Positions 9,492 through 53,039 of a DNA stretch of 53,039 nt are shown here, in pieces (position 1 is the stretch's first letter; every line of letters starts with the position of its first letter). The position numbers were made by a program, and so were the translations under genes. The notes below the pieces were generated by a model. It did not search any database. It saw only the letters and a program-made list of their open reading frames with translations, and had not been told where the DNA came from. The DNA comes from Fragilaria crotonensis (taxonomy: Eukaryota; Bacillariophyta; Fragilariophyceae; Fragilariales; Fragilariaceae), in assembly GCA_022925895.1 (NCBI GenBank), contig JAKSYS010000435.1, positions 1 to 53,039 of the forward strand. The letters run 5' to 3'.

Positions 9492-10283
9492 TCATCGCAG
9501 TCCCATGATTCGCTTTCTTGTTTCATTGATATTTCCGAAATCATGTATCTTCTGGGCGTTCCCAAACAGAGTCGGGGAGGAGATGGCGGGAGATTGTTCC
9601 GACAAGAGACTTGGCGGTGAACCACCATCATCCGGCACTACCCTCGGTTGGAAGTGCACATATTCTGAAGACAACCTGGCAGGCTCGCAAAGGACGCAAT
9701 CGTCCACGACACATTGTCGCATGTGATGATATGCGCTGCGATAGTTGGCGCATCGAGGCACTGGACATTTTGAAGCGACGCATCGACGAACATGATAGTA
9801 GAGGGTCCGGACAGCAGAGCACGTTCTCGACGATGAACATGTATCTCCCAAAGTAAGATTCGAGGAACAGACTGCTGCATGAAGGAGATTCTTGACTACA
9901 ATTTGCTTTTTCTCAAGGCACTTGGAGGTATCGCCGAACTTGTCGTTTGAGAACGAGGAGGAAACGGCGCTCATTGTCGCTGTCAGGCTGCCCCGATAGT
10001 AGGATCCACTTGTGGATCTAGATTTGTGCAAGGACACAGTCTTTGGATTCGGTGGAAGATGTTCGACAAAGTTTGAACTTTGCAACATATTTGAAATGTA
10101 TCCGTTGGCTGAATTCGAAGCCATGTTGTCCGCAAGAACTTGAAACCTGGAGGGTCGAGGTGGATTTGAGGATGGTGCTGGTGGCCGAAAATTTGTGGGT
10201 GCCACGGCGAACTCCCATGGGTCCCATGTCAAGTTCTGCAATTTTGAAAATTCATAGGCGACCACAGGCGCGTCTTTATACAT
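9492..10283 (-). CDS. Stand-alone TAZ-type zinc-finger protein
   Basis: A 263-residue protein with one TAZ-like zinc-binding domain at about residues 130-205. It shows the spaced Cys/His ladder: LLHAAVC, CSAVRTLYYHVRRC, CPVPRCANYRSAYHHMRQC and CVLCEPAR. TAZ domains are best known from CBP/p300 acetyltransferases, where they bind transcription-factor activation domains. This protein has no acetyltransferase, bromodomain or KIX region, so any role as a transcriptional adaptor is inference. The N-terminal 125 residues are Ser/Pro/Asn-rich and look disordered, as does the tail after residue 205. The frame is unbroken. It is divergent from the pseudouridine synthase gene (524 bases apart), so the two may share a control region. 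Confidence 0.75.
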   Translation of the reverse strand: MYKDAPVVAYEFSKLQNLTWDPWEFAVAPTNFRPPAPSSNPPRPSRFQVLADNMASNSANGYISNMLQSSNFVEHLPPNPKTVSLHKSRSTSGSYYRGSLTATMSAVSSSFSNDKFGDTSKCLEKKQIVVKNLLHAAVCSSNLTLGDTCSSSRTCSAVRTLYYHVRRCVASKCPVPRCANYRSAYHHMRQCVVDDCVLCEPARLSSEYVHFQPRVVPDDGGSPPSLLSEQSPAISSPTLFGNAQKIHDFGNINETRKRIMGLR

Positions 10284-10807
10284 ATATCTAGTACGCCATT
10301 GTAATATCCAATATGGAAATTCAAAAATTGTATTACCGATAGTCTCCTAAATAAGGTCCTGAGAGTATCGTCTATCCAAACCATATAAAGGCGACGAACG
10401 GAGGTTTTGAGGAAATGCATTTTCCTAATTCTGTGATAGTTAAAGTTGGCTCGAAATTTCAGAGCATGCCCGGAGCCCAGTCTGTCTGTAGTCTGTATGA
10501 TGTACTCTGAGTATATGATATCCGTTCTAGTTAGAATCATTCACCGTCCGTTATTACGCAGGTACCAGTACTCTTGAACTTGGAATTCGGAATGCTTCAG
10601 TACTGTAGAATATTCCGAATAGGCACAACCCAGTAGGGTCGTGTTCGTTTCCTTTTCTTTCCGTGACAACGTGACTACCCGGTAGTCACCGTCGCCGGCA
10701 GGTCCTTGCCATGGCCATCAACGCCTTCGTCCTTCCAAGCCAAGGCGACTCAACCATGCCAGCTGTCCTAGCCTGAAACAACATCGAGTTCAGTTCTCCT
10801 TGACTGC
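10284..10807. other. Divergent intergenic region
   Basis: 524 bases separate the starts of the TAZ gene and the pseudouridine synthase gene. It is AT-rich near the TAZ start (TTTATACATATATCTAG) and GTAC-rich around 10555-10610. A small inverted repeat, TGACTACCCGGTAGTCA, lies at 10671-10687. No gene is seen. Confidence 0.5.
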
Positions 10808-11928
10808 ATGATTGCGACACGCGTTTGCAAGGCTTTGAATCGCATACCCCGTCAACAACTCTTACTTGCATCTTGGTACACAGTAAGCAGCCCGGCATTC
10901 GAGGCGGCGATGGCTAACGAGTTGTGCGATGTGTATTCGACACGCATCGAAGGCGACAGATTGTACGTGACAGTCCAAGACTCTGGTTGCGGGCCACAAA
11001 TAACGGAGAAAACAGTCACATCGGCCATCCCGGAGACTGTTTTGAAGTATGAACAACACACGAGAAAGGTAAACGCAGCCAAGAGGGCCTCGGCCGATGT
11101 CACGGAAGATGATCATCTTCGCGTCATCTATGTTGATGATCACTTGGTGGTTGTTGACAAGCCATCCGGTGTTCTCTGCGTTCCAGGAGTGAACCATCAC
11201 TCATCTCTCTTGACGATCGTTCACGAAAAATTTGCCCCTACCATTTTGCCTATGGACCGAATCGTTGTTCATCGACTGGATATGGATACCTCCGGTTTGG
11301 TAATTTTCGGACGAACTATGGAGGCCGTGAGCAAGTTGCATCAACAGTTCCGTGATCGGCATGTGGAAAAGTCGTACCAAGCGCTCGTTTGCGGTCACGT
11401 CATGGCGAATGCTGGTACGATCGACTTGCCCTGCAACGAGATCACGAACGGCCTCCCTTTATGCGCGTCTCAACGCCCTGATCCGAACAAGCCGCTGCAC
11501 AAGCTGTACAAGATTTACAACACTTTGGTTATAAAAGCATGCAACGTAAACCAAAATCGAGTGCGACGGAGTTTCAAGTCTTGTCGCGGGAGTATTACAT
11601 GGGCGAACAGTGCCTGCCCGTCACGCGGGTTGCACTGAAACCAATCACCGGAAGGACGCATCAGCTTCGAGTTCATTGTGCTGCATTGGGCCACCCCATT
11701 GTGGGTGATCCTGCTTACGGGATTTACGGCGAAGCCTCACCAAACGGTGGGATATTGGAGGCGTACATGGATTCCCTTTCGCCCAATAGAGCGTCGCTTG
11801 AACTACAACGTCAACTCAATGCTGCTCTACCATTAGTCAGCACCATGTGTTTGCATGCCAAGGAACTTTCCCTCATGCATCCTTTGACCGGAGAAGACAT
11901 GACCTGGGAGGCACCAACTCCATTTTGA
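10808..11928 (+). CDS. RluA-family RNA pseudouridine synthase (one frame break)
   Basis: The enzyme isomerises uridine to pseudouridine in rRNA or tRNA; the target cannot be told from sequence. The catalytic motif is [18 protein letters not shown], with the Asp of HRLD as nucleophile. Upstream is the family strand [19 protein letters not shown], and downstream the conserved [20 protein letters not shown] followed by PAYG. The first Met (10808) leaves about 100 N-terminal residues without a clear S4 domain; an in-frame Met at 10910 is an alternative start. The frame shifts once near 11525, where one missing T in a T run would join KLYKIYNT to the [11 protein letters not shown] frame. The C-terminal part then runs to EAPTPF at 11928. 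Corrected length is about 373 residues. Confidence 0.88.
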
Positions 11929-14403: not shown

Positions 14404-16158
14404 ATGGTTCGACTACTGCAGCTATTGGCACTCCTTCTTTTCGGTTGCTACCCGGGGCATTCGCAGTCACTGAAGAAGTCCACTCGCATTGTCGGTGGTT
14501 CTGTAGTGACGAACAAGGATAAGTATTCCTATTTCGCCCTTGTGAACGCGAGGTATACCGATGGCACGGGGACAGTTCGTACGATCACGTGCGGAGGGAG
14601 TCTCTTTACTTCGTCTGCCGTATTGGTAAGTAGTGACGAGATGCTGTGTATCCCTTCTCATCCTCACTTTCTGTTCTAGTTTTCTGGCTCTCACACGTCT
14701 GTGCATTCCCTTCTTTGTTGCGTCTGCAGACAGCAGCCCACTGTCTATCGAATCCAAAAATCACGGCCATCACTATTACTCTCGACAACGGTTCAGAGGT
14801 GCGAAGAGTACGGGCCAAGTCTTGGGTCACTCATCCATCGTTTGATCCTTCTTCGGCTGTTAACGACATCGGTGTGATTCGATTGGCTCTGACAGTGCCC
14901 AGCAGGTCCTTCGAGCCAATAGCCACCCGATTCTCCACCGGATTTCCGCAACAGGGAAGGTGACTACTGTCATTGGTTTTGGATACACAAGCCAAAACGG
15001 TCCACTCCGATGATCTAAGGCGGGTTCAATTGACAGTACGAGATGGCGCCGTGTGCGACAATGTGTTTGCATCCTTCAAAGAGACGATTGAAATCTGCGC
15101 CGGTGGGTTAGGAAGGTATGCCACACCTCAGCGATCGCCTGCTATGCTCGATTTCGATAATCTTCATGATTCGACACTTTAGACTCACCACGTGTATCTT
15201 CCCTGCAACAAAGGTCCCATGTTCAGGTGACTCGGAGGACCCATGGTTGTGATAGAAAGTGATGGCACTCATCTCCTAGCAGGTATTGTTTCGTACGGAG
15301 GCGACGGGTGCAACGAATACCCTGCCGTCTTTACCCGTGTCAGTGCATTCCAAGTTTGGATCGCAGGCGCTCTCGACTCCGAACCAAACAAAGCACCGGC
15401 CTTGGGATGCTTCGCAGGGTCCAACTCAGTGGAGGTCCGCAATCGTGGACCTGTCCGTATGCAGGATTTGAAGCTAGGTGACGAGGTGATGGTTGGCCAA
15501 GGGAAGTACGAACCGATCTACAGTTTTGGCCATGTCGCTCCGGAGACGATCGCCACATTTCTGCACATTCAAACATCAAGGTCACAGTTGCGTCTCACAG
15601 AAGATCACATGGTGTTCACCTCGTCGCAGGGGGGCTGTACCAGCATCTTCTCTTCATGTGGGAGACTTTCTGCTCGGGGGCACGGGTTTGAAGGATCGCA
15701 TTGAATCGATAGAAGTTCTTCAAGACACTGGCCTTTTCGCGCCGTTTACACCGTCCGGTAAACTTATTGTGAACGACATTCTGGCATCGTCCTACGTCGC
15801 TGTAGTGGACCAAGAGGATCTCAATCTCGGCTGGACGATTCTAAATCTACATTGGTTGAGTCATGCAGTCCTATTTCCTCGTCGACTGATTTGCTGTCAT
15901 CTTGCAAGCTGTCCCTCCGAAACCTATAATTCGGAGGGAATTCCTCTGTGGATAGATCCTGTCTATCGAGCATTTTCGTGGCTGCTGAGTTTCAACAGCT
16001 TCGTAAGGGTTTCCTTGATTGTCACCATGGCTGTGGTAGCTACATTTGTTACTGCTGTGGAGACGTGGATCTGGTTTCCTGCCGCGATGATAGCATTATG
16101 CATGCTGTTGAGCCTGTCCGTGGCGCGCAAGTTCCACATCAAGATCAAGCGCAACTGA
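14404..16158 (+). CDS. Secreted trypsin-like protease fused to a Hedgehog-type Hint domain and membrane segments
   Basis: The start at 14404 gives a signal peptide (LLQLLALLLFGCYPGHSQS), then the zymogen junction TRIVGG. Exon 1 ends after CGGSLFTSSAVL; a 104-bp intron (14626-14729) leads to TAAHC, the catalytic His. The Asp lies in VNDIGVIRL and the Ser in CSGDSGGP, after a second intron (15116-15213). The protease ends with GCNEYPAVFTRVSAFQVWI. The Hint domain starts at GCFAG (Cys codon 15408) with VRMQDLKLGDEVMVG, the TxxH-like LTEDHMVF, then LHVGDFLLGG, and closes with LFAPFTPSGKLIVNDILASS, as in Hedgehog C-terminal domains. After it come HWLSHAVLFPRRL and two hydrophobic spans (about 16005-16130). 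Frame changes near 14960, 15003, 15114, 15234 and 15632 are needed; most lie in A or G runs. Function as an autoprocessed, membrane-linked protease is inferred. Confidence 0.85.
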
Positions 16159-16392: not shown

Positions 16393-17556
16393 CTAGTGAT
16401 TCATTGCGCCCGGCCTCCAACATGAGGTCCAACCCTCTTCCGTGACCAATCCACCCATACCTCGTTCTTTGAACTCAGCGTCCCATTCTCGCTCTATGCG
16501 GCGCTGCTTTGCCAAGGTCGAAACGAAGAATGTCAATGCGAATGCGACTAGGAAGAGGGCGATCCCCGCCACTCGAAGGGGATGCAACGGAGTTGGTTCC
16601 AGCGGCTCGTAGTATGGTTGAGTCCATGTGGCATGTTCTTGACCAACGGTGGACGTTTGTCCAATGTTATCGATTCGCTTATCAAAATCGCCATCCTCCA
16701 AACGGATCGCCAGCGCCGACTGCGCAACCGACTGAACGGCTTGCAAGGCATCGTCGTCAGACATGTCTTTGTACTTAACGCCAACATGCAACAATGGATA
16801 CTTGACTAGCCATCCGGTAAAGTTAAATCCTTGTCGCGAGCGGTCTTCGACGACAAATTCAACTTGTTCGGGGCGAATGATGGATTCCCCTGTATATTTC
16901 GCGATCGCCAAGCCGTTGTCTTGCAATTCTCGCATGCGCCGACCCATTGTTGCTGTGCAGCTATCACCATTGTCGTTGTCAAGTAGGACAAAGTCCGTAT
17001 CTTCGCAGAGGACATACAATAGGGCATTCGTGATTTTGGTAACCACGGTTTGATTTTGTCCGCGACGCACTGACGCCGCCGTAACATCATCCGCTAATAA
17101 TGAAAAAGTAAGATTGACAAATCCCACAATTCCAGTAACCGATGGCGACGTTGACGGAAATTTTGAAGGACGTCCAGTCGACGGAAATTGGGATGGAGAT
17201 TGGGACGGAGATTGGGACGGAGATTGGGACGGAGATTGGGACGGAGATTGGGACGGAACTTTGGATGGGACTAAAGTGGAAGGAGACAACGTTGGTGGAA
17301 CAAGGACTCCAAGAGCTGATGGCTGTGCAGATCTGGTAGGAGCTGCCGTCGGTGATGGCGACGGATACGGTGACTCGGTTGGAAAGTCAAATTCAGTGGG
17401 AGATGCAGTCGGTACCTTATTCTTATTGTTGTTGTCTTGCAGTGACCGTGAATCAAGGACGTATTGGTTGGTTTTGGCTCCACGAGGCAAGCTGTGCGCC
17501 TCGGAGTGAGAAGAACAAATCAATAAAAATACCAAGGCTGAAGGTAATCGTATCAT
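16393..17556 (-). CDS. Secreted Ser/Pro-rich single-pass membrane protein
   Basis: A 387-residue protein with an intact frame. Residues 1-21 (MIRLPSALVFLLICSSHSEA) form a signal peptide. Residues 50-145 are Ser/Pro/Thr-rich, with five perfect QSPS-type units encoded by a 12-bp tandem repeat; this region is a likely O-glycosylated stalk. Residues 146-310 form a globular part with several Asn-x-Ser/Thr sites (NLTF, NQTV, NFTG) and two Cys. A transmembrane helix (VAGIALFLVAFALTFFVSTL) is followed by a short basic cytoplasmic tail. I do not recognise the globular family; similar Pro/Ser-stalk architecture is common in diatom surface proteins. It converges with the protease-Hint gene, with 234 bases between the stops. 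Confidence 0.75.
   Translation of the reverse strand: MIRLPSALVFLLICSSHSEAHSLPRGAKTNQYVLDSRSLQDNNNKNKVPTASPTEFDFPTESPYPSPSPTAAPTRSAQPSALGVLVPPTLSPSTLVPSKVPSQSPSQSPSQSPSQSPSQSPSQFPSTGRPSKFPSTSPSVTGIVGFVNLTFSLLADDVTAASVRRGQNQTVVTKITNALLYVLCEDTDFVLLDNDNGDSCTATMGRRMRELQDNGLAIAKYTGESIIRPEQVEFVVEDRSRQGFNFTGWLVKYPLLHVGVKYKDMSDDDALQAVQSVAQSALAIRLEDGDFDKRIDNIGQTSTVGQEHATWTQPYYEPLEPTPLHPLRVAGIALFLVAFALTFFVSTLAKQRRIEREWDAEFKERGMGGLVTEEGWTSCWRPGAMNH
17195..17254. repeat. Five copies of a 12-bp unit (GGAGATTGGGAC)
   Basis: Five perfect 12-base units lie head to tail inside the gene on the minus strand and encode a repeated Ser-Gln-Ser-Pro stretch of the stalk. Imperfect units flank the array on both sides. 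Because the unit is a multiple of three, copy-number change would keep the frame. Confidence 0.95.
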
Positions 17557-18463
17557 TGTTGTGTTAGCTCACTAAAAGAACTGAACAGAAAGGTTCCTCG
17601 GCCTTGATGAAGTGTTATGCGGTGTAGCTATTCCAGTCCTGAATTAATCCGAGTTTGAGATACTCTAGCATATACAAAAACCAAAGATCAGGAGTGCGGA
17701 ATGTGGAGGGTGGTGTTGAAGAGGAACAACGTAACAGTGCTGCTTGAAACACACAATTGTACTCGTGTACTCTCTCTAGAAGAGATGCGAACGGTTCACA
17801 TGTTAAATGCTTGCAGGTGCTGTGTTCTTTTTGTTTGCTCCTACCCCATCGTCGTAGTACTCTAGCAGTAGCACTGCTAGGGAGAATAGTAGTATCATAT
17901 TCCTAACCCTCTATGGATATAGCATATATACTATATACATCTCTTTCTTGTCATGTTGGGGACCACACGGGTTGTACCCTTCACGGAACAATGCATTCGT
18001 ATATTTGTAACTGTATATTTCAATAGTCCAGCTCCAAGCATATTGCGATACTATTACGATCGAACGCGCAGCCGAAAAATGGATACATTCTTTCCTAATC
18101 TGCTAGTACGATTCACTCTCGGAGTGCAGCGTGCAGCATTAGCAATTAGCAGTCACCACTCACGCACGACGGCTCGAGCTATCATATGACATACGCATTC
18201 CACCGTGTCTTTCTTGGGTAATTTGTGTACCAGGTACTAGTATTGTTTTTCTGCAGTGTAATGCTCCTTTTTTTGCGCTGAACGCTTGATACATGTGATT
18301 CACGATTCAAAACTATTATTATATGTCGTAGTCGGAGAAGCCATATTTGTACCCCACCCCCACACACCAAAAGGACTGAGACTCTAAAACAAGTTTTCGA
18401 AGATATGTGTATGCGAGTTCGGTATTTCAACACTTTTCTTAAACTAAAAGCTCCTATGTCATA
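17557..18463. other. Intergenic, no gene seen
   Basis: About 900 bases hold the promoter side of the minus-strand membrane-protein gene and otherwise show no coding signal. A TAGTACTCTAGCAGTAGCAC segment (near 17855) and ATATAGCATATATACTATAT (near 17920) are the only patterned words. Confidence 0.5.
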
Positions 18464-24722: not shown

Positions 24723-25187
24723 AAACTATCATACAGTACGACGGTGCACGCTGAGCTCTGAGAGTACTCCAGTACAATTGTACTCTGGTTAATGTTTACT
24801 AATTTTTGTACGCATATTTCAGAGTGTATGGAATACGAATGTTATGATACTGCCGTGATACGTAATACGCATTGCACTAGTAGTAGATATTACTGGCAAA
24901 AAAGTATGATAGTACTCGGTACCGCTACTCTGAGCTCTGAGTACAGCACAGGTACTTGTACTACATACGAAGCAACGATAGGGGCTACCGGTTCCTGGTA
25001 CTGTACCCTACTACCGGTAGAGAGTTACAAGTACCAGAGTAGCCCAGGATTGGTCCAAAGGACCCAAGGTACGCTGGTACGCTCGGATCGCTTGCAAAGA
25101 CTGGCCATTAGCCATGTCGCACAATTTGCACCCCAACGCTCATGCCGAACTGCACATCCTGAGCCGGTGGGACTCTGCGGATCGAGA

Positions 25188-26842
25188 ATGGAATGGAAGT
25201 ACATAGTCCCGTTGTACATTTCGTGGCGAATCTACGCTGCGAATCGCATGCCCATTCTGGACTGTGACGAAGTTTTCAACTATTGGGAGCCACTCCACTT
25301 TCTAAGTTATGGTGATGGCTTGCAAACATGGGAGTATGCGCCACACTATGCGCTTCGAACTTACGCATATATACTTCCAATGCAATGGTATAGTTGGCTC
25401 GCGTCTAAGTCCTCCGTCGCTTCCTTTGTGGCGCCGATGCTAGTAGGTCATCAAGTCACCACTGCCAAGCTAGCAACCTTTGTACTGCTTAGGTCCACAC
25501 TGGCTGCTTTGTCAGCATGTGCGGAATTGCTACTTCTCACCGCTATCTCCGAAGACGTACCATTTCACGAATCGCTCACGAGACAAACCCTGGTGTCCAA
25601 GAACGTTTCCTATGCAGCTGCCCTCCTCTTCCTCACATCAACTGGAATGACCCACGCAGCGGGAGCCTACCTTCCATCATCGTCAGTAATGATTCTGTGG
25701 ATGATCTGTGCGTCGTGCTACGTGCGATTGCAAGTTCGAACTTTCTGTGCACTTGCGGTAGTTGCGACCTTGTGCTTGGGTTGGCCCTTCGGTGTTATTG
25801 TCTTTGTCCCGATGGGGGTCGATCTTCTTCGTCGCGACAGATCTCCGATTAGACTGTTGTTTGGAGTTGCCCTTTGGGCTTGTGTCGTGCAAGCTGCCGT
25901 CATGTTTCTGGATTATAAACACTACGGCAAGTGGACCTCTGCCGTTCTCAACATCTTTCGATACAACGCACAAAGCGGTGGGGATGAGCTCTACGGGATA
26001 GAGCCAGCTTCCTTTTATTTCAAGAATTTATCTCTCAACTTCAATTATGCTGCGTTGCTGAGTATTCTTTTCCTTCCAGCCTCTGCGCTTCTCAGACTTT
26101 GCAGGAGGCCTCTACCAACGTCCTTGATTGTACTCATCGCTCCACTCTACCTTTGGCTTGCAATTGTTGTGCCACGACCTCACAAGGAGGAGCGCCTTTC
26201 CCAGTTTATCCACCCTGGTAATTGCATCTGTCGTTGTGGTTCAGCAAGCGTGGGATGCGACGCCTGGGACGACGGTTCAGATCCAATGTGTTGAGGCAGA
26301 ACCTATGGATTCTTTGTTTGCTGCCATCATGTTTCATATCTCTAAGTCGCAGCATGGCCCTCTCCAAATACTACACAGCACCCCTTAAGGTGCTTGCCGC
26401 TGTCCCAGTGTCAGCTCCAGGCGTGGTTTGCACCTGCGGCGAATGGTACAGATTTCCGTCAAGCTATTATCTGCCTGAGGGGTACCAGCTCGCCTTCCTT
26501 CCGTCTTCATTTTCTGGTCAGCTTCCGAAGTATTTTGAAGCCGAAGGAAGTCGCGCTGGTTCCAACTTTAACGATGTCAACAGAGAGGAGCAAGATCGCT
26601 ATGTCAACCCCGAATCCTGTGACTACATTTTTGAATTGGAAACGTCCCCTGATGCCGATTGCCTTAAAGTGATGATGGGCTCGTCAGCAGAATGGACGAA
26701 ATTGGTGGATGTGCCGTTTCTGAACGCTAAAGAAACCGCCATTCTACATCGCATTCTCTACGTACCCTTCCTGCATAAAGGCGAGTACAATTCCTATTCC
26801 TTATACGCCAAAACGGTGAGTGCTGAGCCTATGGCTACTTGA
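25188..26842 (+). CDS. ALG9: ALG9-type alpha-1,2-mannosyltransferase (GT22), frame breaks near the 3' end
   Basis: This is an ER multi-pass enzyme that adds alpha-1,2-mannose from dolichol-phosphate-mannose to the lipid-linked N-glycan precursor. The signature DCDEVFNYWEPLHFL with QTWEYAPHYALRTYAY is diagnostic of the GT22/ALG9 group. Several hydrophobic helices follow, then PRPHKEER (the conserved luminal HKEER motif). The soluble C-terminal domain has CTCGEWYRFPSSYYLPEGYQ and LAFLPSSFSGQLPKYFEA. The frame changes in 26196-26216, where T and C runs appear shortened, and near 26332 in a T run. The start chosen is Met 25188 (MEWKYIVPLYISWR). Another Met at 25114 in a second frame gives a plausible N-terminus, if the duplicated GAATG pentamer at about 25186-25195 is an error. 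The end (SLYAKT...) meets a GTGAGT at 26816, so a last intron is possible. Confidence 0.88.
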
Positions 26843-28541: not shown

Positions 28542-30152
28542 TACACGGTGACCAGACATTTTGCTCCCATTCACGGTTTTTTTTGGCATCCAATAGTTAA
28601 GATCAATCGAATCATCTGCCTCCGATGAGCAGTAGAAGATGCTGCATCCTGCAGTAGGATACTTCAACACCTGGTAATTGACTTGGCCCATGAGCTTCTG
28701 TGTCATCTTCAAATCATTTGGATCCGTGCTTTCCGATTCGAGCTGAATATCTTCAAGAGCGCACAGCGACTTGAGGGCAGACTCAAAGTCTTGTAACTTG
28801 AGTTCAACGAAAATGATCTTTTGCAGAGTCTTGCCGCAATCGGTCTGTTTCAGCGTATGATTTCTCCTGACTACAATAAAGCTCCTTGAGAGTCTGTGGT
28901 GGAATTTGGTTAGTACAAGCAGGACACCGACTTATTCACCCGGAGAAAAAACAAACACTCACGGCCAATGCCTTGTCGTAAGAGCCTTGGACTGCGTAGG
29001 CGTAGCCTAGGTTGTCGAGGGTACTTAGCACCAATTTGTTGTCAGCTCCAAGAAGCAACTTTTGGATCGCCAACGACTCATTAAAAGTCGAAATCGCTGA
29101 CCTGTAATTCTCTTGCTCGAGATCAATGTAGCCTTTATTGCACATAGTGGAAGCCATGGTGAGAAAGCCAGGCTTGGTGGCTGGGTTCGTGAACGAAAAC
29201 GACGAAACCTCTCCAAGCGTTTTCTTCTGCAATTGAATTGCATCAACGAAGGCGTCCTTGGCTGCTTCAAATTTTTTACTCTCGAAATTCACACAACCAA
29301 TGTTGTTCAAAACTTTCGCGACTTTAAGATTGGTCTCCTTGACTTCCTCGGGAAGAACTACATCGTCTGCTTCAGCTTCCCTCATCTCCAAAGCCTCCAT
29401 GAAAGTCTCAAGTGAATCCGAATATTCTTTCATTGAGAGCAGAACGATTCCTAGTTCGACAAGCGAATCCTGCATGAAGGAAATTGGCTGTTGAGGGAGA
29501 TCCATCGATACGTATCCTTTCGCAAAGGTCTCTGAACTTACCGCGACTTTCGGGTCGTCTGGACCCAGGGTTACCTTGCGGATACGAACCGCTTCTTCTA
29601 TGGCATCCATAGCGTCGGCAAGTTTCCCTGCTCGAAGGTTCGCAATTCCTACATTGTGCAATGCTGCGCCAACTCGATGGTGAGTCTCCCCGAAGCGTTC
29701 CAGGATCGACGCCAGAATCGACTCAAACTTCTTCAGCGCTTTAGAGAACTTTCCACTCTATCATTATCCTGGAGGTTAGCCAATGTCGTGGACACAGGGG
29801 AAGCAGGCTACTCCTTGTACACTTCAGCACTTACTCTCATGTATTTGCATGCCTGACCATGACGAGCACGTATGTCGCGGTCAAACTCAGCGAGGCTATC
29901 CTCGTCTGCGGTATCCAAATCAGACTTGAAAGACTCTGATAGCTGCCTACCTTTTTTTCCACGCCGAGAGTTGCTTGGGTATTGATCTTCTATGCTGTCG
30001 CTGCCAACACTGTCATCAGAGTAGTCAGTTTCGTCTCTGGTTTCAGTTCTTGTGGCAGCATTGAACCAATTTGCGAAGAAGCCGCCTTTGCTTGACCGTT
30101 CATCTTCGGTCACGGTCTCTGCTTGTGAGAGAGACGGTTTGCGGCTGACCAT
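28530..30152 (-). CDS. TPR-repeat protein, kinesin-light-chain-like
   Basis: The start at 30152 gives MVSRKPSLSQAETVTEDERS. Exon 1 encodes an acidic, Ser-rich, probably disordered N-terminus. Intron 1 (29834-29769, 66 bp, GTAAGT...CCAG) leads to about five tetratricopeptide repeats, e.g. VGIANLRAGKLADAMDAIEE, LNNIGCVNFESKKFEAAKDA and LDNLGYAYAVQGSYDKAL. Intron 2 (28962-28894, 69 bp) joins KALA to TLKELYCSQEKSY, in phase 0. TPR arrays bind partner proteins; the 42-residue spacing with RKxxLGxDxP tails is typical of kinesin-light-chain-like TPRs. The partner is unknown. Frames change near 29752 (a shortened A run) and near 28832. The C-terminus has HRVTCA and lies inside a local duplication. 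Confidence 0.8.
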
Positions 30153-42062: not shown

Positions 42063-45000
42063 CTGTCCTGGCCCATATCCTGACGGTCGCCGGGTTCCCT
42101 CCCGAAACTCCGACCTGTCTCAATTTAAATCTGGTGCCTAGCACCGATTTAAATTGCTCTAACCCTTGTTCTTTTCATTCCAGCCCTCACCCAATACCAG
42201 CAGTACATGTCCCTACTGCTGGGAGAAAGAAATTCTCATTCCTTGCGCTCACTTTTTTTGCAAAACTGTTCTCACCCAACTAACACTTCATCCTCAACTT
42301 TGCAACACTCACATGGCCAACCCAGCGCCCACCCGTTCGCCTCCAACCAAGGCCAACCCTCCCTCCGCCCATTGTGTGAAGCCTACGAAGCACATGGCGA
42401 ACTACGTCGCCGCCGACGGCGATTTTGCAGCTCCTTTTGATGCACTCAAAATGCTGTTCTCCTTGCAACACTTCAAACATCTATGTTGCAACTTCTAACC
42501 ATCACTAACACTTATCCTACAGCTGGAACTAACACCTTCACGCCCAAGAAGAGCACCAACAAAGCTCCAGGCGATTTTCAGCGCGCTCGCACGGCCCTGA
42601 CTCCTGAGCAAGAGTCCGCCGCGAGATCTCGCGTTTCCTTGCACTCGTCGAGCAAGAACGCGCCCAAGACAACAAGACCAGGGTTACCTACGCCTGCAAA
42701 CCCTCCAACGAAGCAGGATCTACCGAAATGGGTCGCTCCCATTCTATTTCCAACGCAAACGGCGCCACCAACGACATCGAAGCCGCCGAACCCAAAATGA
42801 CAACGACGACGACGCGCGCAATAACACCCTTCCACCTCCCTCCCGCGCCAAGAAGACTTCCACTCGCCTCCTACGAAAGGCCTATCAAGAAACAACGTGT
42901 TAGCTTTGATACCAACGTCGCAATCATCAAGAACAAGACTACAATGAAGTCGCGAAATGCGACTCTTTCAAGATCCCGGCGTTTGACGCCGAAGACTCTC
43001 CAACGACAAGAGGGGTACCATTCCAACCGTCTCCGAAAGTGCTTTCCAATGCACTTCTCCATCCGCAATCCGACGATTACTAGAGAAATCGTCGAACCGC
43101 GAAGCCCATCAAGTTATTTCAAGAAAACGCACGTTTCACTACCGTGCTCCCGAAGACGCTCTCCCGAGAATTCTGACGACGCCATCCTCTCCGGCGACGA
43201 AAGAGCTTTCGAACAAGACCTCACTGACCTTAATCCGCCAGAAATTGGCGGAGAACGAGACGAAACAGTGACGGCAAAATGGATGACAACCATTCCAAAA
43301 ACGCAAATTCATGTATGGCGCCGACAACGAGTATACACCCGCGACGCCAGAACATGTGGTTTTTCCTCCTGGTACTGTTTTTACGGCGGTCTCTACGACA
43401 GACGAACAGTTCTTTCGCGAGTACTGCCCTTCTACGCCTGGGCACGCTACGCTTTTCTACCCACACCGCATCAATGCGGTCATACACCGCGGCACAGTGT
43501 TCTTCCTGGGACTCCGCCCAGCACAACCTCCGGCCGCACTCGCGGCATTTCAGTCACCAGTCTCCCCGACGAGAACACCCCGTCCACGGTGACGCCATCA
43601 ATGGCCCTGGTCACAACGACGGCATTGGTCCGATGTCCGAGCGCGATCCCGGAATCGAAAATGCCGTTAACCCCAACTTCAACGACGACATTTGCGAAAA
43701 TGTCCTTGCTGTAGTTAACATGTCAGCCAATACCTCTATCTACTCGCCGCCTGCGCTGAGTAGTAGACGTAGCGCATTTGTACATGCCTGAACTCACACG
43801 TACGTCATGTACTCCCACACTGCCTTTACAGACGGAATCCGAACAAAACCAATGGACGAAATATTCATCAAGACTCCTCCCAGGACGAAATCGAAATTCC
43901 CTACGTCGAATTGCCCTCCCACTGACGGACACGGACACCACCTACGTCTGTGGACATGCTGACGTCTACGTTTCCAGCACAGCCACACGCAATGTCCGCC
44001 TTCCATCGCCCGGACACCAAGATCTACGGTGAGACAGACAAGACGAACAAGAAAACTACCCGCTTTTCGTCAGTCACATATCACAATTTTTCATCCAAGA
44101 AAACTGCAGCCCCTACAAACTGCAACCCCTTTTATTTTCAACCCATCTCCGAAGACCCTCATATTCTTCATCCCATCGTCGACAGCGACGACTACGAGAC
44201 ATCATCTACCGCGTGCAACGCCTCACGTCTCATTCAAGACCCTGAAGCTTTTAGGATCCCAACGCCCTTCAGCTTCGACAGACATCCATCTCCCTTCACG
44301 TTTGCATCCGAAACTTTTTCGCCTTTATTCTCCCACTTCACCGCCACCGACGGCGCCTACGACTGCCTTTCTACGACTACAGGCATCACCAACTTCGTCG
44401 AAGCCATGTCAAGTGATCACCCTACGGATCCCTACCGACTTGACACTCCGTTTGTCCCCTACCGACAGACAGCACATTGGACCCAATCCACCATGTGCCC
44501 TTCCTGCAGCACTCCTCTGAGCTTGACTCAAGGACTAACCTCATGCCGCCCTTCTATATTACCCTGATGCAACTTTGCAGGATAATGTTAATGGGCCAGT
44601 CACCATGCGCAATCTACCTGCATGCGTTGACGTTAGCATCACCGCTGCATCCTTCTGCCTCCGATACATCCAATCGGACGCCGCGACCAAGAAATGTATC
44701 CGTGACCTCACTACGGACCACCTACGTCATTTCTTCCGCGAACTTCACCCTGTCCTAACTGTGGATCATACAACTATTGCTGACAATGATGACAGCATTG
44801 AGTACATCCAATGTATGCAACACACTTTGAACAGGACAACCAACTTAGTCATGGACAATTTACCTGCTGAATTGCTCCAAACTAACTTCCCAGATGGCAC
44901 CCCTGCCTCTTATCTGAGTCTCCTGACTGATCATGAGCCAGACACCCCAGGCCATGAATGTGCCCTTGCCATTCTCTATGCCTTCAAGACACTGCATCTT

Positions 45001-46960
45001 GTTCACTTTCTGACCTACCCTTCAAGTCAAGATTCCACTTTCAAGTTCATGCCACATGACCTCTCTGATATCATCCGAATGTGCCATCCTTGCGACAGCA
45101 CTGCGTTTATTTCCCAACCGAAGTAATTTCAGAGACGTCCCTGCATTCATTCACACTTTCTTCCAAGACCAGCAAGTTGCTTCCAACCCCTCGACAAGCG
45201 ACAAGACAGCCAACGCTCATCCTACAATGAGCATCCTACCAACTTTGGCTCAACCTCACTATTTGCCTTCACTTATTCTCCGCTTGTGAACGGCTTTGGT
45301 GACCCATCTCCGAAATCCCACCTAGAAGCTCTAGCTGCTAGGTCCCTCATCTCAGCTGCCCTCCAACACCATGCATCTCTCTCTACCAAGGTCACCAATG
45401 GTGATGACCCAGATTTGCAACCTACCAACATCATTCTTGGAGCCCTACCCCAGCTGACATGATCTTCAACTACCATTGCTCTGCCTTCCCAATGGCTACT
45501 CTACCTACAACTGAGCAGCTCCATGGCAACACTACCTATGCAATGAACCCTGCTACCACCCTAGCAGTGAACTTTGTGATTTGTCGAGATATATCTCCAA
45601 ATTACCTCCAAGAGATCGACATCCCCGCTGGAAACCATCAATATTCCTCGGACAAGTCCCACTTCATCCCATTTCTACCAACACCTACAACTACTCGATC
45701 GACTTTCTACCAGATCATGAGTATCTACTCTTCCGTGTTGTCAAGACTCGATGTTATCGATCCCCAACGTAGCTACCGCAGACCCCAGAACCATCCAATG
45801 TTCTCATCTTCCAAGGTACACACTCAGAGAACCCATCCTACACCTCTGGATCTCAAGTTGAACTGCCTATTCCAAAGGAAGGAGCACACCTTCCCTATCA
45901 TCTATGATTCTGGCAATCTGCCCATCATTTTTGATCACAGAAATGGCAATGTTGAACCCTACACTTCAACCACAGTTCAAGCCCTTTTTCAGACTCAAGC
46001 TTGCATTCCTATGACTGCAAACTATGAAGCAAATCAATGGGCATGTCCTAACAATCCCAGTCAACTTTGGCGCCAGTCAAACCCTGTCCACCATGTTGTT
46101 GATGATCCTCACACTGTTCCCTTGATCTTGCTATCAGACTTATCCAAGTTATCACCACGAAACGTGGATCCGACAATGTCTACCGCGCTTGGGCCTTGCC
46201 ACATCTTCAAGACGCCCTCCAAAAGCCGGCTGATCAGATCAAACACAATCGCTTTTCATTTTTCTGGCAACAGCACAATCACCCAGAATACCCATACACA
46301 AACAAGACCCAGAATTACTCCTTAATGTCATTCCTGGTGAGTCTAGTTCCTTGTGTTCTGACAATGAAAGCACAGCCAAATCTATTACTTGCAACTCACT
46401 TATCCCTCCTGGCCACAGACACAATGATGTGAATGTAGCAACAGAGGATAATTGCAATGTAATTAGATATGAATTGAAAAACAACAATGTCCTCTTGAAC
46501 ACAATGCATTAGTTGTTCTCACACGCAGATCATCGCTTCTACCGGAAAACAACCCGGGAATCGAACCTGCAACCCCAATCCTGAAAATTGACAGTTCTAC
46601 CGAAATTGACGAAACAGAACATGAAACGTCAGCAATTCCTGAAAACTCACCCATTTCTGACACTCCTGCTCCTTTTATTGACACTTCAACAAAATCCGAC
46701 AGAAAATCCGTCGAATCCCTTGCAGCGTCTGTCACGTGCAGTCGGACAAATTCTAACACCAAAACCCCTTGTCCGACACAGCAGACCAAACCCAGCCTCC
46801 ACCCGCTGAAATTGTTCCCAAAACACCAACGTCAAGACCAAACGCTCCGTTACCGACAAAACGCTCAGAACTCACCCAACGTTCGCTTACCCGCCAAGAC
46901 AAGAGACATTCTTCGACGACGACGACCAAGACGACGAACAAGAAGACGACAACGGACCGC
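42063..46960 (+). other. Long coding-like region upstream of gag, unassigned
   Basis: About 4.9 kb on the sense strand reads as long open segments that switch frame repeatedly, for example MANPAPTRSPPTKANPPSAH, the frame at 42728-43714, FSSVTYHNFSSKKTAAPTNC (44060), VNGPVTMRNLPACVDVS (44585) and YQIMSIYSSVLSRLDVID (45708). The amino-acid usage looks protein-like (balanced hydrophobics, no simple repeats). I recognise no gag, env or host domain. The easiest reading is one long additional protein of perhaps 1500 residues with many indels; a nested or captured gene is an alternative. Copia elements normally do not need such a region. Confidence 0.5.
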
Positions 46961-48140
46961 CTCAGATTCCCTTAGGTTCTCCTGATGCCCTGACTTCATC
47001 AACAAGAACCGACTTCACATATCCTCCGATTGAAGATCTAACAAGAACGCTCCTGAAATACGCCAAGACTGCAAACCTTCAAAGCTGAACTATCCAAGTG
47101 ATCTTCTCCAACGACGACGTCAGTTCAATGCCTTTATGGACAACCTTCGAATTGTTTGCAACATATCTCCATGGACACGCAATGTCTTTGACCTTCTGGC
47201 CAAAGCAAATCAGCTACTCCCATCCATGCATTGGCACAGCACTCTACAACCTGATCTTCACCAACATCAGTGATCCTTGCCAGAAGCACATCATTGACTG
47301 TCCACCTGATGCCAGAACTGCCATTCTGACTCTAAGACGTCATTGTGCTCCACTCACCCAAGATCACATTGAACGCACGCGCGAATCCTTCTACTCGATC
47401 AAACAAGGTCACCAAGAAGTTGCGACATCATACTTGAATCGCATTCGGACTCTAACGCGCGACTGCTATCATGCCGGTATCCCTAACACCGATGCCGACA
47501 TTATCAAGCGAACCATCCGTGGCGGCAGCAATCACCACTTTTATGCTGCTTCCTACCAACGTTTTGACGCCGACATCCGTCGAGCTGAGTTGAATGACGA
47601 AGAACTACCCACTTTTGCGGAACTTGAGAGCCATTTGCTGAACATCGACGACTCGCGTGGACTCACCTTCCCAAAATCAACGCAATTACAACCAGCATGC
47701 AAATTCTGCACGTCAACCGTTTTCAAACCAATCCTCTCCTGCCCTAAGCACACAACGTTTTCACCACGCCAACAACATGCCTTCAGTTCTATGATGCGAC
47801 CGTACACTGCTTCAAACAACAGACCACCGCATCGACCAAACAATCGAGGACCGAATCAAGCTCCTGCACCACCAAGACAACATAACAACAATGATCGCAG
47901 AAGCACACCACAACAATCTCGCCCTTCAACAACAGAATCGCGGCTCACGCCTCCTCTCAGACCGATATCTTCAAACAATGGAAATCAACGGCGCCTCCAA
48001 ACAACACACCAGCTGTGAGACGAAACCCTAACACATCCAATGCTGCAAATATTGTATGCAATAACTGTGGTAGACTTGGCCACTATGCTAATCGATGCAT
48101 AACCGCCAATCGCTCATCAACTAACCAGAACAACCGTGGA
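46961..48140 (+). CDS. Copia gag with CCHC zinc knuckle (frame breaks)
   Basis: Gag forms the nucleoprotein particle. The N-terminal part reads PIEDLTRTLLKYAKTANLQ, followed in another frame by RRRQFNAFMDNLRIVCNISP. From 47220 the frame at 47098-48018 gives LYNLIFTNISDPCQKHIIDC, SFYSIKQGHQEVATSYLNRI and ELPTFAELESHLLNID, the helical body of a UBN2-like gag. The zinc knuckle is CNNCGRLGHYANRC at 48057-48098, in the next frame. Frame changes lie near 47090, 47210 and 48010, so it is not readable as one protein in this sequence. Confidence 0.85.
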
Positions 48141-48698
48141 GGACCGCCGCCCAGAAATCCAAACAATGAAAATGCAGCACCCCGCAACCAGCGTGCTTAC
48201 TTCATTACTGACTCCACTGCATCTAACTCCCATGCTTTTCATCATCAAGCATACATGGCCTCCTGTGATCTCCAGGACACCTTCAATGCCCCATCTGCAG
48301 TTACCTCATGGCCTGATGTCAATGCTCCTCAGATGGAAATCAACAGAGCATTGCTCAACAATGATTTCTTACCATCAGCACCAAACTCTCCACCCAACAC
48401 AGGCTCAACAGAACTCTTCCCTGAAGACCCCTTATCAACACATCAAAGATTTGGACCACCAAGTCTTGACAACTGGCTACCTGACAGTGGTGCCACATGT
48501 CATTATACACCCGTTTTCAGCGATCTTCGTGATGTTGAAGCCTGCCACATCCCTGTCTCTCTTGCTGATGGAACCACCAAGATCTCAACATTCAAAGGAA
48601 CTGACTGCTACTTCACCTCTGATGAAGGACAAAAGTCTATCCTTGGCCTAACTGATGTTTATTATATTGAAGGTCTCAGCCACCGCCTTCTTTCCTGA
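48141..48698 (+). CDS. Copia aspartic protease region
   Basis: In frame with the zinc knuckle, a Gly/Asn/Pro-rich linker leads to WLPDSGATCHYTPVFSD. The DSGA motif (Asp codon at 48483) is the retroviral-type aspartic protease active site that processes the polyprotein. It continues VSLADGTTKISTFKGTDCYF and LGLTDVYYIEGLSHRLLS, the usual copia protease C-terminal strands, to a frame-ending stop at 48698. Confidence 0.88.
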   Translation, partial: GPPPRNPNNENAAPRNQRAYFITDSTASNSHAFHHQAYMASCDLQDTFNAPSAVTSWPDVNAPQMEINRALLNNDFLPSAPNSPPNTGSTELFPEDPLSTHQRFGPPSLDNWLPDSGATCHYTPVFSDLRDVEACHIPVSLADGTTKISTFKGTDCYFTSDEGQKSILGLTDVYYIEGLSHRLLS

Positions 48699-50168
48699 CA
48701 ACCATCTCTGCAACCCAGAATTTCACAGTCATCATCCAGAACAGAGCCACTACAATCCAGTTCCCAAACAATTCAAAATACACATGGCCCCTGCTCCTGC
48801 ATGAACTCCCAACACAGAATGCCTTTTCTACCATGGCACAACCTGTGGACACCACACCTGATGAAACTTCCTTCTCCCTGCATTTGACCAACATGTTGAT
48901 CCTACACAAGCTGACACCTCAAGACCAACAACTTCTTTGCCTCTTGAGACCATATCCCGTCGCCTTGCGCACCGAAATTTCCGCAATCTCATGACCGGAT
49001 CCCTGCATCACGCTTGAATGATCATACACTCGCCTGCGATTGACAAAAACACTTGGCCAATTCGTATCTCGATCAGCCAAAAACACGCTCGCAGCAAAAT
49101 TCCTCTCAGACAAGGCTCAGAACCGTTTCACCAACTTCACCTTGATCTCATGAGAAACCCTTTCGGTTTGGACTCACCACTGCAACAAACTATTCAGCCT
49201 ACCTCTTTATCGTCACAACACCTGGCAAGCTAACTGGCTGGATAGGACTTCCAACTGAAAGCACCACATCCATCATCACAGCCCTTAAGTCCTGGCTTAC
49301 TCAGACAGAACTACTTGGCCGCACAAAGTCCGTCCGCTTCATCCGTACTGATGCCGGATCTGCCTTTACATCTGCAAAATTCATCACAGAATGCACCAAC
49401 CTTGGAATCAAACTTGAAGCTGCTGCTCCAGAACACCAAGAAATGAATGGCATCTGTGAAGCCAAATGGAGAGAAGTTCACAACACTGCAAATGTACTTC
49501 TCAACACTGCCCGACTTGGCGGTGCCTTCTTCCATCATGCACATGCCTATGCTGTTAGCATTATTAATGCTTGTCCAGCCAAGAATGTGACTGACCAACA
49601 TGGCAACCCAACCACACCTTCCAATACAGCTATGGCAGAAAACCAAGCCTTGCCAACTTCCGTATTTGGATGCCCTGTCTACTTCAAGCGCTACGAACCG
49701 ACCTTCCGCAACAAGCTGATTACCTATAAGCAACAACTCCAACGTGCTTCCCGTGGTATCTTCATCGGATTTGAGAACTCAGCCGGATGGCTAGTTTACT
49801 CTCCTGATCATCCGCAGCGCATCGTAATCACTCGCGACGCCTACTTTGATGAAGACTTCAGCTCTGCCCTTGCCTTTGATTCAAAGCCCTTTGCCGGAGC
49901 CATTCCCATCCGATCTCACTTGGATCCCAATGGACTCCAATCTTTGGACAACTCTGAACCATCAATTGTCCACCAAACCGGATCTGCTGCCAATCTAGGC
50001 ATCACACCATCCACCTATCTTGAAGAACTCCATGACTCTGAACAACTTTACAAGCACAAGACAATGGCCCTTCAAGCCCTGCCCATCCAGAAGATGATAT
50101 TGATGACACTGATCCCATCACAGAATCTGACATCTCTCCTGGACCAACACCACCAACTCCTCAGCTGA
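48699..50168 (+). CDS. Copia integrase (frame breaks)
   Basis: A pre-integrase zinc-binding segment (HRNFRNLMTG near 48970) and HLDLMRN (first catalytic Asp, near 49143) come first, in broken frames. The second Asp is in RFIRTDAGSAF (near 49350) and the Glu in GICEAKWREV (codon 49458), completing the DD35E set. From 49443 the frame is clean through FGCPVYFKRYEPTFRNK and ASRGIFIGFENSAGWLVYSP, which are the copia integrase C-terminal signatures. The enzyme inserts the cDNA into host chromatin. Confidence 0.88.
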
Positions 50169-51615
50169 TCAACTGGACCTTTCACCAACTGAGACACACC
50201 CCACTTCACAAGGAAATGACTTTATACTTCCAAGAGTGTGCTGAATCTCTGCCATCAGTTGATCCCATCCACACTGCCATGCTTGCTGTTGACGCATCCA
50301 CAACTTCGCCCACCGACGATCCAGTGGACAAGTATCTTCCTGAACCGCAATCCTTCAAAGCCGTTCTCAAACTTGACGATGACGTCCGCAATGCCTGGCT
50401 ACATGCTATTCGCATGGAAATCAAGAACTTAATCGACCACGATACCTTCATCCTAGGTGAACAACCCCGGAAAGATGAACTCATCATCCCTGTCAAACTT
50501 GTCTTGAAAGCAAAACAAACTGCAACTGGTAAACTTGAAAAACTTAAAGCTCGCCTTGTCGCCCGTGGCGACTTGAAAACGACGATTGAAGAAAACTAAA
50601 GCTGCTTACCAGCAATTTCTCCAACAACAAAAACAAGACAATGCTGAAAACAATCCTGAATCCAGCAAGACAACTAACACCATCCCAATTGAGGTACCTC
50701 AACCTTTTGAGGACACATGGTCACCCTGTGCATCTTCAAGAGGGGTCAAGTTACTTCTCTCAACAATCTGTGCATCCCACCGCACTCTCAAAAGTGCCGA
50801 CTTCATTGGCGCATATCTACAAGCCAAAGTCATCGGTCGCCACTTTGTCAGACTTCCACTTGAGTATGCATATTACTTCCCTGAATATGCTAAATACTTT
50901 GGAACTCCAGCCCTTTTGAACAAGGGAATCTATGGACTTGTTTACTCTGGAAAATATTGGAACATTGAATTCTCTGAATGGCTTTACTCCAAAGGATTCA
51001 TCCAATCCCAGTCTGAACCCTCCTATTTTGTCTTTTACAACAAACACAACCAATGGTTACGCCTTCTTCTTTGTCGACGACATGCTCTACGCTGGCAGCA
51101 ATGACGCCATCGAAAAAGAATTCGAAGAATCTGTCCGCAATCGCTTTGACGTCAAGTTCCTTGGACCTGCTCAATGGTTCTTGCAAATGCGCATCCATCA
51201 ACACAAAGACAAAACCTACACCTCGACCAACATCGCTACGTTCTCAACACTTTGCAACGTTACGATCCCAACTCCGAGTTCCCTGAACGTGAAACACCAT
51301 TCCCACCGGATTACCTTCAGTAAAGACAATCGACCTGTCACCGATCATGACAAACAAGTTGTCGAACAACACGAAACGCCTCCCATTCCGCTCCGCTGTA
51401 TGTACGCTACTCTATCTTGCCTACAACACCCGTGCTGATATCCTCTTCGCAGTCTGCAAACTTGCAAAGCCTGCGTCTGCCCTGGCGAACTCGACTTCCG
51501 TGCTCTTATCTGGCTGATTGGCTACCTACGCCGTCGCCCATATTATGCCATCAAGTTCTACCCGGATGCCACGACCAACCCTGTTTACGACATATGTCGT
51601 CAACACCGCATTCCC
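50169..51615 (+). CDS. Copia reverse transcriptase (frame breaks)
   Basis: It begins with PEPQSFKAVLKLDDDVRNAW and MEIKNLIDHDTF, then KARLVARGDLK, the typical copia fingers. After a frame change near 50590 come SADFIGAYLQAKV and LLNKGIYGLVYSGKYW. The catalytic box is FVDDMLYAG (Asp codons 51076 and 51079), reached after a further frame change near 51050. AYNTRADILFAVCKLAKP near 51420 is the C-terminal conserved block. The enzyme copies the element RNA to DNA. Confidence 0.88.
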
Positions 51616-52182
51616 CATTCCGACTTAACCGTATTTTCCGACGCCAGCTGGCAAGATTGCCCTGACACTGGCCGCTCTACTGTCGGTTATATGATCTTTC
51701 ACAACGGTGCTCTCATCGAAGCCAACTCTACGATGCCAACACCAATTGCTATGTCAACGTCCGAGGCCGAATACATGGCCGCATGCTCTGCATCCATGGC
51801 CACAGCTCACATTCGGATGCTACTCTACGACATGACATATCTCGGAACCAAACATTGGCGCGAATCTATGCAGCGTCTTCCAACCATCCCATCGATTCTC
51901 ATGATCGACAACGAAGCCACTGTGCAGATCGCCAAGAACGGCAAATTAACCCGCAAGACTCGTCACATCGAACGACGTTTCCACTATGTCCGTCAAGGTC
52001 AACAAGACGGTATACATCAACTACATTGGATACCTTGCGATTCTCAACTTGCCGACATCCTCACAAAAACACAAGTCTCTTCCAAAATTGATCAACACAT
52101 TGACAAAGTCTTCTGTACACTCCTGATCACATGCTACAATCTACAAGTGAATCTACAGAGATTTGATTCAAGAGGGTGTTAA
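51616..52182 (+). CDS. Copia RNase H, ending in the right LTR
   Basis: The domain includes DTGRSTVGYMIFHNGALI, the STSEAEYMA block, ILMIDNEATVQIAKN and TRHIERRFHYVRQ, then HWIPCDSQLADILTK, all standard for copia RNase H. It degrades the RNA strand during reverse transcription. The frame from 51691 is intact. The stop codon TAA (52180-52182) is made by the first bases of the right LTR (TGTTAA). Confidence 0.9.
   Translation, partial: HSDLTVFSDASWQDCPDTGRSTVGYMIFHNGALIEANSTMPTPIAMSTSEAEYMAACSASMATAHIRMLLYDMTYLGTKHWRESMQRLPTIPSILMIDNEATVQIAKNGKLTRKTRHIERRFHYVRQGQQDGIHQLHWIPCDSQLADILTKTQVSSKIDQHIDKVFCTLLITCYNLQVNLQRFDSRGC
52170..52176 (+). promoter_or_regulatory. Polypurine tract
   Basis: AAGAGGG directly precedes the right LTR, the expected position of the plus-strand primer. 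Confidence 0.7.
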
Positions 52183-53039
52183 ACATTCCGTATCGCCCTA
52201 CATATTTTTACATTATCCCTATCCCTAATTACTGACGCCCGAGTGCACAGTAAAACATTACATCGTGCTCCAGTAACCAGTGCGACACTGCACGACTGGA
52301 ATCAAAACGTCGATTCAAACATGTTCATCTCATCCCATGAGATTGAACAATCGATTTCAAACGAGGCTCAACGCCTCGTATACCAAAAACAACGCCGCGG
52401 CACGAAACGACGTCTTCCGGAAACGAGGAGTGTTCCTCATTGTTCCAAGGAACACTCCCCTTTCATCAGACCTCTCATTTCGGTCGCCCTCTCCTTTTTC
52501 CCACAATTGTCAATTTTGTACATTTTAGTGTCACTCACCTTTTTACTTACACTGCATATTTTTCTCACGATGATGATGATTGACCATGACGAGTTTTTAC
52601 CCGCCGTCGTCATGACATCATATACACCGTGCTGTACAAATATTAGTAGACAGTACGACGGTACTCACTACAACGACAATACAGCACAACACGGCGACAG
52701 TACAACAGTACTCCTCGCACATCACTTCCTCTGCCCGTCGATAGTACGCGCACGTCTGAGTTTAACGTTACTGTACATAACGATAAACTAATAGACAGTG
52801 CCCACTATACGACACGCGATATTTCTACTAGTCAGTCTCTCGCACATTCATGTAGCGATAGAACGACAGATAGTACACATATCGTTATCTGTAGCGGTAG
52901 ACAGCACTGCGTAGCTGTACCGTTTATAGATGAACTGAGCAGTAGTCAGTGTCGTACTAGACACTTACCTACTGGGGGCGTACCTCGTAACGGTTACGTC
53001 CTGGTTCTTAACCCGAACCTTATGCCGACCTGCGCGTCG
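52177..53039 (+). repeat. Right LTR, truncated by the window end
   Basis: It matches the left LTR from TGTTAAAC to the point equivalent to 42017, so about 27 bases remain beyond the window. Substitutions between the LTRs are few. Confidence 0.93.

Follow-up and report, generated by a model that had tools for sequence, protein, structure and literature searches.

Does a single diatom gene join a secreted serine protease to a Hedgehog-type Hint domain and, if so, what would the Hint domain do to the protease? The question is raised by positions 14,404 to 16,158 of contig JAKSYS010000435.1 of Fragilaria crotonensis (assembly GCA_022925895.1), whose whole analyzed stretch of 53,039 nucleotides is termed the window here. 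An earlier note on this DNA, made from the letters alone, had proposed such a fusion and suggested by analogy that the protease would be released from, or lipid-tagged by, its own C-terminal module. Our analysis supports the fusion at the level of sequence, and the reading we favour for its product, with a probability of about 0.48, is that of a secreted zymogen-Hog precursor that would cut itself and release the protease with a lipid at its end.

Protease and Hint domain belong to one gene

In the unedited contig, one frame (15231-15701) carries the end of a Pfam Trypsin match (E-value 6.4e-5, 23.3 bits) and the start of a Hint match (1.5e-12, 48 bits) with no stop codon between them, and the remainder of Hint lies in a second frame (15490-16155; 6.5e-11, 42.7 bits). 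As the Trypsin end and the Hint start share a single raw frame and both exceed the curated Pfam cut-offs, 20.6 bits for Trypsin and 29.7 bits for Hint (PF01079), their adjacency is more than chance. A composite of the two genomic copies of the gene matched both profiles in one protein, again above these cut-offs (Trypsin, E 1.5e-36; Hint, E 9.7e-25, 87.8 bits), so that the identity given to the second half by the earlier note held up. Both domains are also present in P0001, a separate public protein of 518 amino acids that is uninterrupted and 98% identical over residues 270-518, and P0030, which has an MMETSP transcript label and is of type complete, bears the same fusion. Trypsin and Hint were precomputed together in 14 of the 63 proteins that a search with the Hint half retrieved, including P0001 and P0003, the NCBI model for the gene, annotated as a serine-type endopeptidase of Fragilaria crotonensis, an ochrophyte diatom; P0064 and P0065, two more such fusions, were among the 22 matches of a second protein search. 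Two separate genes split between 15350 and 15408, the alternative that the earlier note had named, are disfavoured at sequence level by the shared open frame, P0001 and P0030.

Trypsin and Hint were the only domains above cut-off on the composite and on P0001, and no Hedge signalling domain was found on either. The His-Asp-Ser triad in a chymotrypsin fold places the N-terminal half among the S1 serine proteases. Because Val stands at what we take to be the specificity-pocket position of trypsin Asp189 (two residues before the Cys of CSGDSGGP), trypsin-like specificity for basic residues is unlikely, and targets with hydrophobic or small side chains are more probable. Whole-protein fold searches returned protease matches only, among the matches listed; as the protease domain filled this list, the relative P0002 was folded separately for Hint.

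Locus layout and reading frame

The gene lies on the forward strand and is laid out as follows:

14404..14625, + strand: exon 1, with the signal peptide, the zymogen site RIVGG (cut between R and I) and the first protease strands (translation, window reading)
14404..14466, + strand: signal peptide MVRLLQLLALLLFGCYPGHSQ, by inspection of the translation, with the ATG at 14404
14626..14729, + strand: intron 1, GT..AG, 104 bases, missing from the 518-amino-acid relative P0001
14730..15115, + strand: exon 2, protease; catalytic residues are His (14739-14741) and Asp (14865-14867); reading frame broken in the contig
15116..15213, + strand: intron 2, GT..AG, 98 bases, supported by GLGKVPCSGDSGGP in P0001 and the NCBI model P0003
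15214..16158, + strand: exon 3, with the protease end and catalytic Ser, Hint, post-Hint helix and hydrophobic spans; frame interrupted in the contig
15408..15795, + strand: Hedgehog-type Hint by profile match, with Cys1 (TGC, 15408-15410), His46 (15531-15533) and T-x-x-H (15597-15608)
15847..15912, + strand: kinked helix following Hint that contains H-x4-P-x-R-L and a Cys pair; a candidate region for adduct recognition
15997..16131, + strand: two hydrophobic helices, likely a membrane hairpin (P0001 model helices, composite hydropathy)
16156-16158, + strand: stop codon

The signal peptide, TRIVGG, TAAHC (at 14730) and NDIGV (at 14862) were read in the window where the earlier note had placed them, and a low-confidence model helix (residues 2-12) occupies the signal-peptide position in P0001. 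Raw exon 2 matched the Trypsin profile by itself (14730-14957, E 4.4e-6). GDSGGP is legible in a second copy of the gene, 99% identical, at C753:121478-123230 (the genome comprises 62.1 Mb in 881 contigs), but falls in no single frame in the window, where the reading frame of the gene is broken at several places. The second copy is also interrupted, but at other sites. As the two contigs differ by 129 gap openings, and by 64 mismatches, across 26.6 kb of aligned pieces, length differences between them are general and not confined to the gene, and we infer that the copies are two haplotypes with unpolished homopolymer runs. An alternative acceptor for the second intron near 15182 is disfavoured, P0001 and P0003 both favouring 15213.

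Catalytic residues and fold of the Hint domain

The Hint catalytic residues are kept, as is the predicted fold. Cys1 and His72 are retained in 103 of 103 aligned Hint sequences, under very different N-terminal regions, and the T/S-x-x-H motif, also legible in the window, is equally invariant (103/103); the model of the relative P0002 has the predicted Hint fold of Hedgehog proteins and inteins. The Cys codon at 15408-15410, LTEDHMVF and the Hedgehog-like end FAPFTPSGKLIVNDILASS are all present as first described. An intein is not indicated, since by reading the domain ends in ILASSYV, without a terminal Asn/C-extein nucleophile splice junction.

Three features had escaped the earlier note: where Hedgehog has Asp at position 46 the diatom Hint has His, its motif-J Cys is replaced by Ser, and other secreted proteins carry this tail as well. 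Position 46 is His in 102 of the 103 sequences, including the window gene, and Tyr in one, a count partly built in for the 21 rows from the Fragilaria genome itself, which were selected for His, Tyr or Phe at this position; the 82 public proteins were kept whatever the residue. Nematode Hog proteins may also have His here, in which case His46 may be the common non-Hedgehog state.

Helix and hydrophobic spans after the Hint domain

The P0001 model predicts a broken helix after Hint (residues 416-423 and 425-433) that carries H421-x4-P426-x-R428-L429. Of 97 sequences, 72 contain the pattern H-x4-P-x-R-hydrophobic, where shuffles would yield 0.17, a figure that speaks for conservation and not for independent origin, the sequences being relatives; 6 of the 103 rows, which offered no anchor, were left out of this count. 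Within a 62-row alignment, Arg is conserved in 61 rows, His in 55 and Pro in 54, and E440 and G446 in all 62. In passages of PMC7242414, the first helix of the human SHH sterol region carries W372, H374, P379, R381 and L382 with a kink at P379, and H374, F377 and R381 are required, the H374A and R381A proteins being without cholesterolysis. The spacing from His to Leu is the same in the diatom helix as in SHH.

The HWxxH segment pointed out by the earlier note reads HWLSH, and two hydrophobic spans do follow it, with hydropathy peaks at residues 461-479 and 485-503 of the composite and model helices at 466-491 and 493-510 of P0001. Two spans come after Hint in 55 of the 103 rows, one in 43 and none in 1, with 4 rows too short to score.

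Lipid transfer and its alternatives

The proposed precursor would consist of a signal peptide, a chymotrypsin-fold zymogen, a Hog module (Hint plus the post-Hint helix) and a C-terminal hairpin in the membrane. Once it had entered the secretory pathway and Hint had folded, Cys270 would attack the Gly269 carbonyl, and this N-to-S acyl shift, aided by Thr333 and His336, would produce a thioester. The thioester would then be resolved by a nucleophile from outside, for which the hydroxyl of a membrane sterol or similar lipid is the likeliest candidate, with the kinked helix positioning the lipid and His311 (Hedgehog position 46) acting as the base. The protease would leave carrying a lipid at its end, and the Hog half would remain on the membrane. 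The zymogen would be activated by a separate trypsin-like cut between Arg28 and Ile29; like this step, the membrane topology and location are presumed. Self-cleavage by Hint is in our judgement probable, and the choice of lipid over water as the nucleophile is, overall, close to evenly balanced.

Several observations weigh against the favoured reading. The motif-J Cys (Cys400 in Drosophila), mutation of which in Hedgehog inhibits both processing steps according to passages of PMC4695875, is Cys in 1 of the 103 sequences, the others having Ser (68, the window gene among them), Asn (24), Thr (5), Ala (4) or Val (1). The residue preceding Cys1 is variable (Gly 18, Phe 17, Ile 9 of 62), and the Gly-Cys at the start of Hint, correctly read in the window gene, is no rule of the family. 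The helix motif is missing from 25 of the 97 sequences. At the spacing of SHH F377 there is no Phe, the column being mostly Glu, Leu or Asn with Phe common one residue earlier, and the profile alignment to Hedgehog ends where Hint ends, leaving the resemblance of the helix as a motif match. As F377 is unmatched, the Trp lies one residue further off and the profile alignment does not reach the helix, homology to the SHH sterol-region helix is only presumptive. In the same parts of PMC7242414, P379A left the cell-associated share of SHH unlowered, and no SHH sterol-region sequence was predicted to span the bilayer, unlike the spans predicted here.

The strongest rival to lipid transfer is hydrolysis, in which Hint would cut itself with water resolving the thioester, leaving the protease unmodified and making the tail a membrane tether and self-timed release device. 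The same catalytic residues would serve this N-to-S shift, the loss of the motif-J Cys and the lack of a match to F377 at its spacing fit it, and in vertebrate SHH the D46A change speeds sterol-independent cleavage induced by dithiothreitol 2-6 fold (passages of PMC13060885); yet the post-Hint helix and His46 are conserved beyond the apparent needs of simple hydrolysis, and we regard this outcome as possible rather than probable. It is improbable that cleavage has been lost and that the C-terminal half serves merely as the membrane anchor of a surface protease: the two hydrophobic spans, Ser at the Cys400 position and the variable residue before Cys1 would suit an anchor, whereas the retention of Cys1 and His72 in every sequence, despite such different N-terminal regions, would not. 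A pseudogene, chimera or assembly artefact, already disfavoured and very unlikely, would explain the broken frame in both genomic copies but neither the differing sites of interruption, the general length differences between the contigs, the intact P0001 nor the 14 of 63 relatives with both domains.

Other secreted proteins with the Hint tail

All 62 aligned relatives match Hint and 13 match Trypsin, the others having leucine-rich repeat (LRR), Sulfatase, DUF1028 or Reeler domains. Hint relatives in the second protein search carried PF06468 and PF00144, which we take to be spondin-type and beta-lactamase-type domains, and a search from the divergent P0083, which gave 3 matches including the query, added a phosphate-binding-type domain (PF12849). 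The Fragilaria genome itself holds at least 69 Trypsin matches and at least 32 Hint matches at 29 places, one of these below cut-off and some of the places probably second copies; among the matches listed, this gene and its second copy are the only places where the two domains lie less than 1 kb apart, and the next closest pair is separated by 8.3 kb. Ten other Hint frames in this genome comprise two with Peptidase_M43, two PBP-like, one with a PT disordered repeat and five with nothing more above cut-off. The M43 metalloproteases on the same Hint tail (L022 and L027) represent a second protease class in the Fragilaria genome. Loci L010, L015, L019, L021 and L023 group together in a Fragilaria Hint clade of their own (support 100), four of the five having Pro-Thr-rich repeats before Hint; position 46 is Tyr in L015, the only one of them to depart from His.

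A quick tree was built from 103 Hint modules with Shimodaira-Hasegawa-like approximate likelihood-ratio (SH-aLRT) support, leaving out the own-genome loci L029, L030 and L032-L038 and, as in alignment A1, P0003; only the Fragilaria loci can be called diatom with certainty. The trypsin label, borne by 26 of the 103 rows (by some of them owing to a trypsin remnant recognised by eye), requires 4 changes on this tree, and 21 rows form a trypsin clade with support 91. The starred branches alone are compatible with a single origin of the fusion. As an approximately unbiased (AU) test rejects a single trypsin clade (p 0.0003), the Trypsin-Hint fusion probably arose more than once. Searches with two short peptide patterns matched 18 stretches in viral contigs and 27 in prokaryotes (one genome per species), none of which was confirmed.

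A bolder reading, possible rather than probable, is that Fragilaria, and probably diatoms generally, have a general lipid-tagging system in which one His46 Hog tail would couple secreted proteins to membrane sterols with wide sterol tolerance. The tail would have been swapped onto two protease classes, phosphate-binding-type and other secreted proteins, and in further relatives onto sulfatase and LRR proteins. If true, a set of sterol-anchored enzymes would sit at the cell surface, and the tail may be one means for diatoms to attach enzymes there.

Relation to known Hint and Hog proteins

The Hedgehog C-terminal domain HhC (1AT0; D46H mutant, 6TYY) differs from the diatom module in following a Hedge domain, where the diatom gene has a protease, and in having Asp46 and Cys400, where the diatom gene has His46, Ser and predicted membrane spans. 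His46, an engineered state (D46H) in Hedgehog, is the natural residue of the diatom gene. The diatom gene adds a C-terminal Hog module to an S1 chymotrypsin-family protease. Unlike inteins and bacterial intein-like domains, its Hint has no C-extein junction, and splicing is therefore not expected.

In the non-Hedgehog Hog proteins, an often secreted, variable N-terminus precedes the Hog module and the motif-J Cys is often replaced, as here; among those in parts of PMC2362128, PMC13353863 and PMC3723955 there is neither a protease domain nor a member from diatoms. Many protists, and also red algae, mosses and nematodes, have Hog proteins whose secreted N-termini vary (parts of PMC2362128). In 2008, other recognised domains were reported there only in GIN1 and Hoglet, and the words diatom, Thalassiosira, Phaeodactylum, heterokont, stramenopile and protease were not found when its main text was searched. 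Passages of other sources describe kelch-Hog combinations in red algae (Cyanidiophyceae; PMC13353863), AIG1-Hint proteins in coral (PMC3723955) and bacterial Hint_2 counts (PMC12487129), the last two with no protease-Hint fusion; Hint in more than 290 genes of Pleurosigma pacificum and 112 of Seminavis (PMC12803021); and Hint proteins in Seminavis sexual reproduction (PMC3879662). Parts of PMC7242414 and PMC7906309 describe Hedgehog proteins as the only ones to which cholesterol is covalently ligated. Across the open-licence literature, represented mostly by titles, abstract starts and passages, no protease-Hint fusion and no natural His46 was described, a silence that is weak evidence of novelty. 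A diatom gene family that retains the Hint catalytic residues and key residues of the helix, with what would be a natural D46H base swap, and that attaches this tail to ordinary secreted enzymes would make the age of protein-sterol ligation testable and offer natural domains for protein lipidation.

Neighbouring features in the window

The fusion gene is met by a convergent frame (16396-17568, - strand; 391 amino acids) that has no Pfam match; it contains a hydrophobic stretch at the N-terminus, a Pro-Ser-Gln-Ser repeat and one more hydrophobic stretch near the C-terminus. A region of about 10 kb in which GC skew is strongly negative (42163-52791, + strand) looks like a retroelement: of five frames scanned, one matched SH3_retrovirus above cut-off, one Retrotrans_gag below it and three nothing. 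The window also holds frames for a TAZ zinc finger (9495-10346, - strand) and a pseudouridine synthase (10772-11635, + strand), a tetratricopeptide repeat protein (28939-29757, - strand) and an Alg9-like mannosyltransferase (24762-26291, + strand; PF03901, E 5.4e-58).
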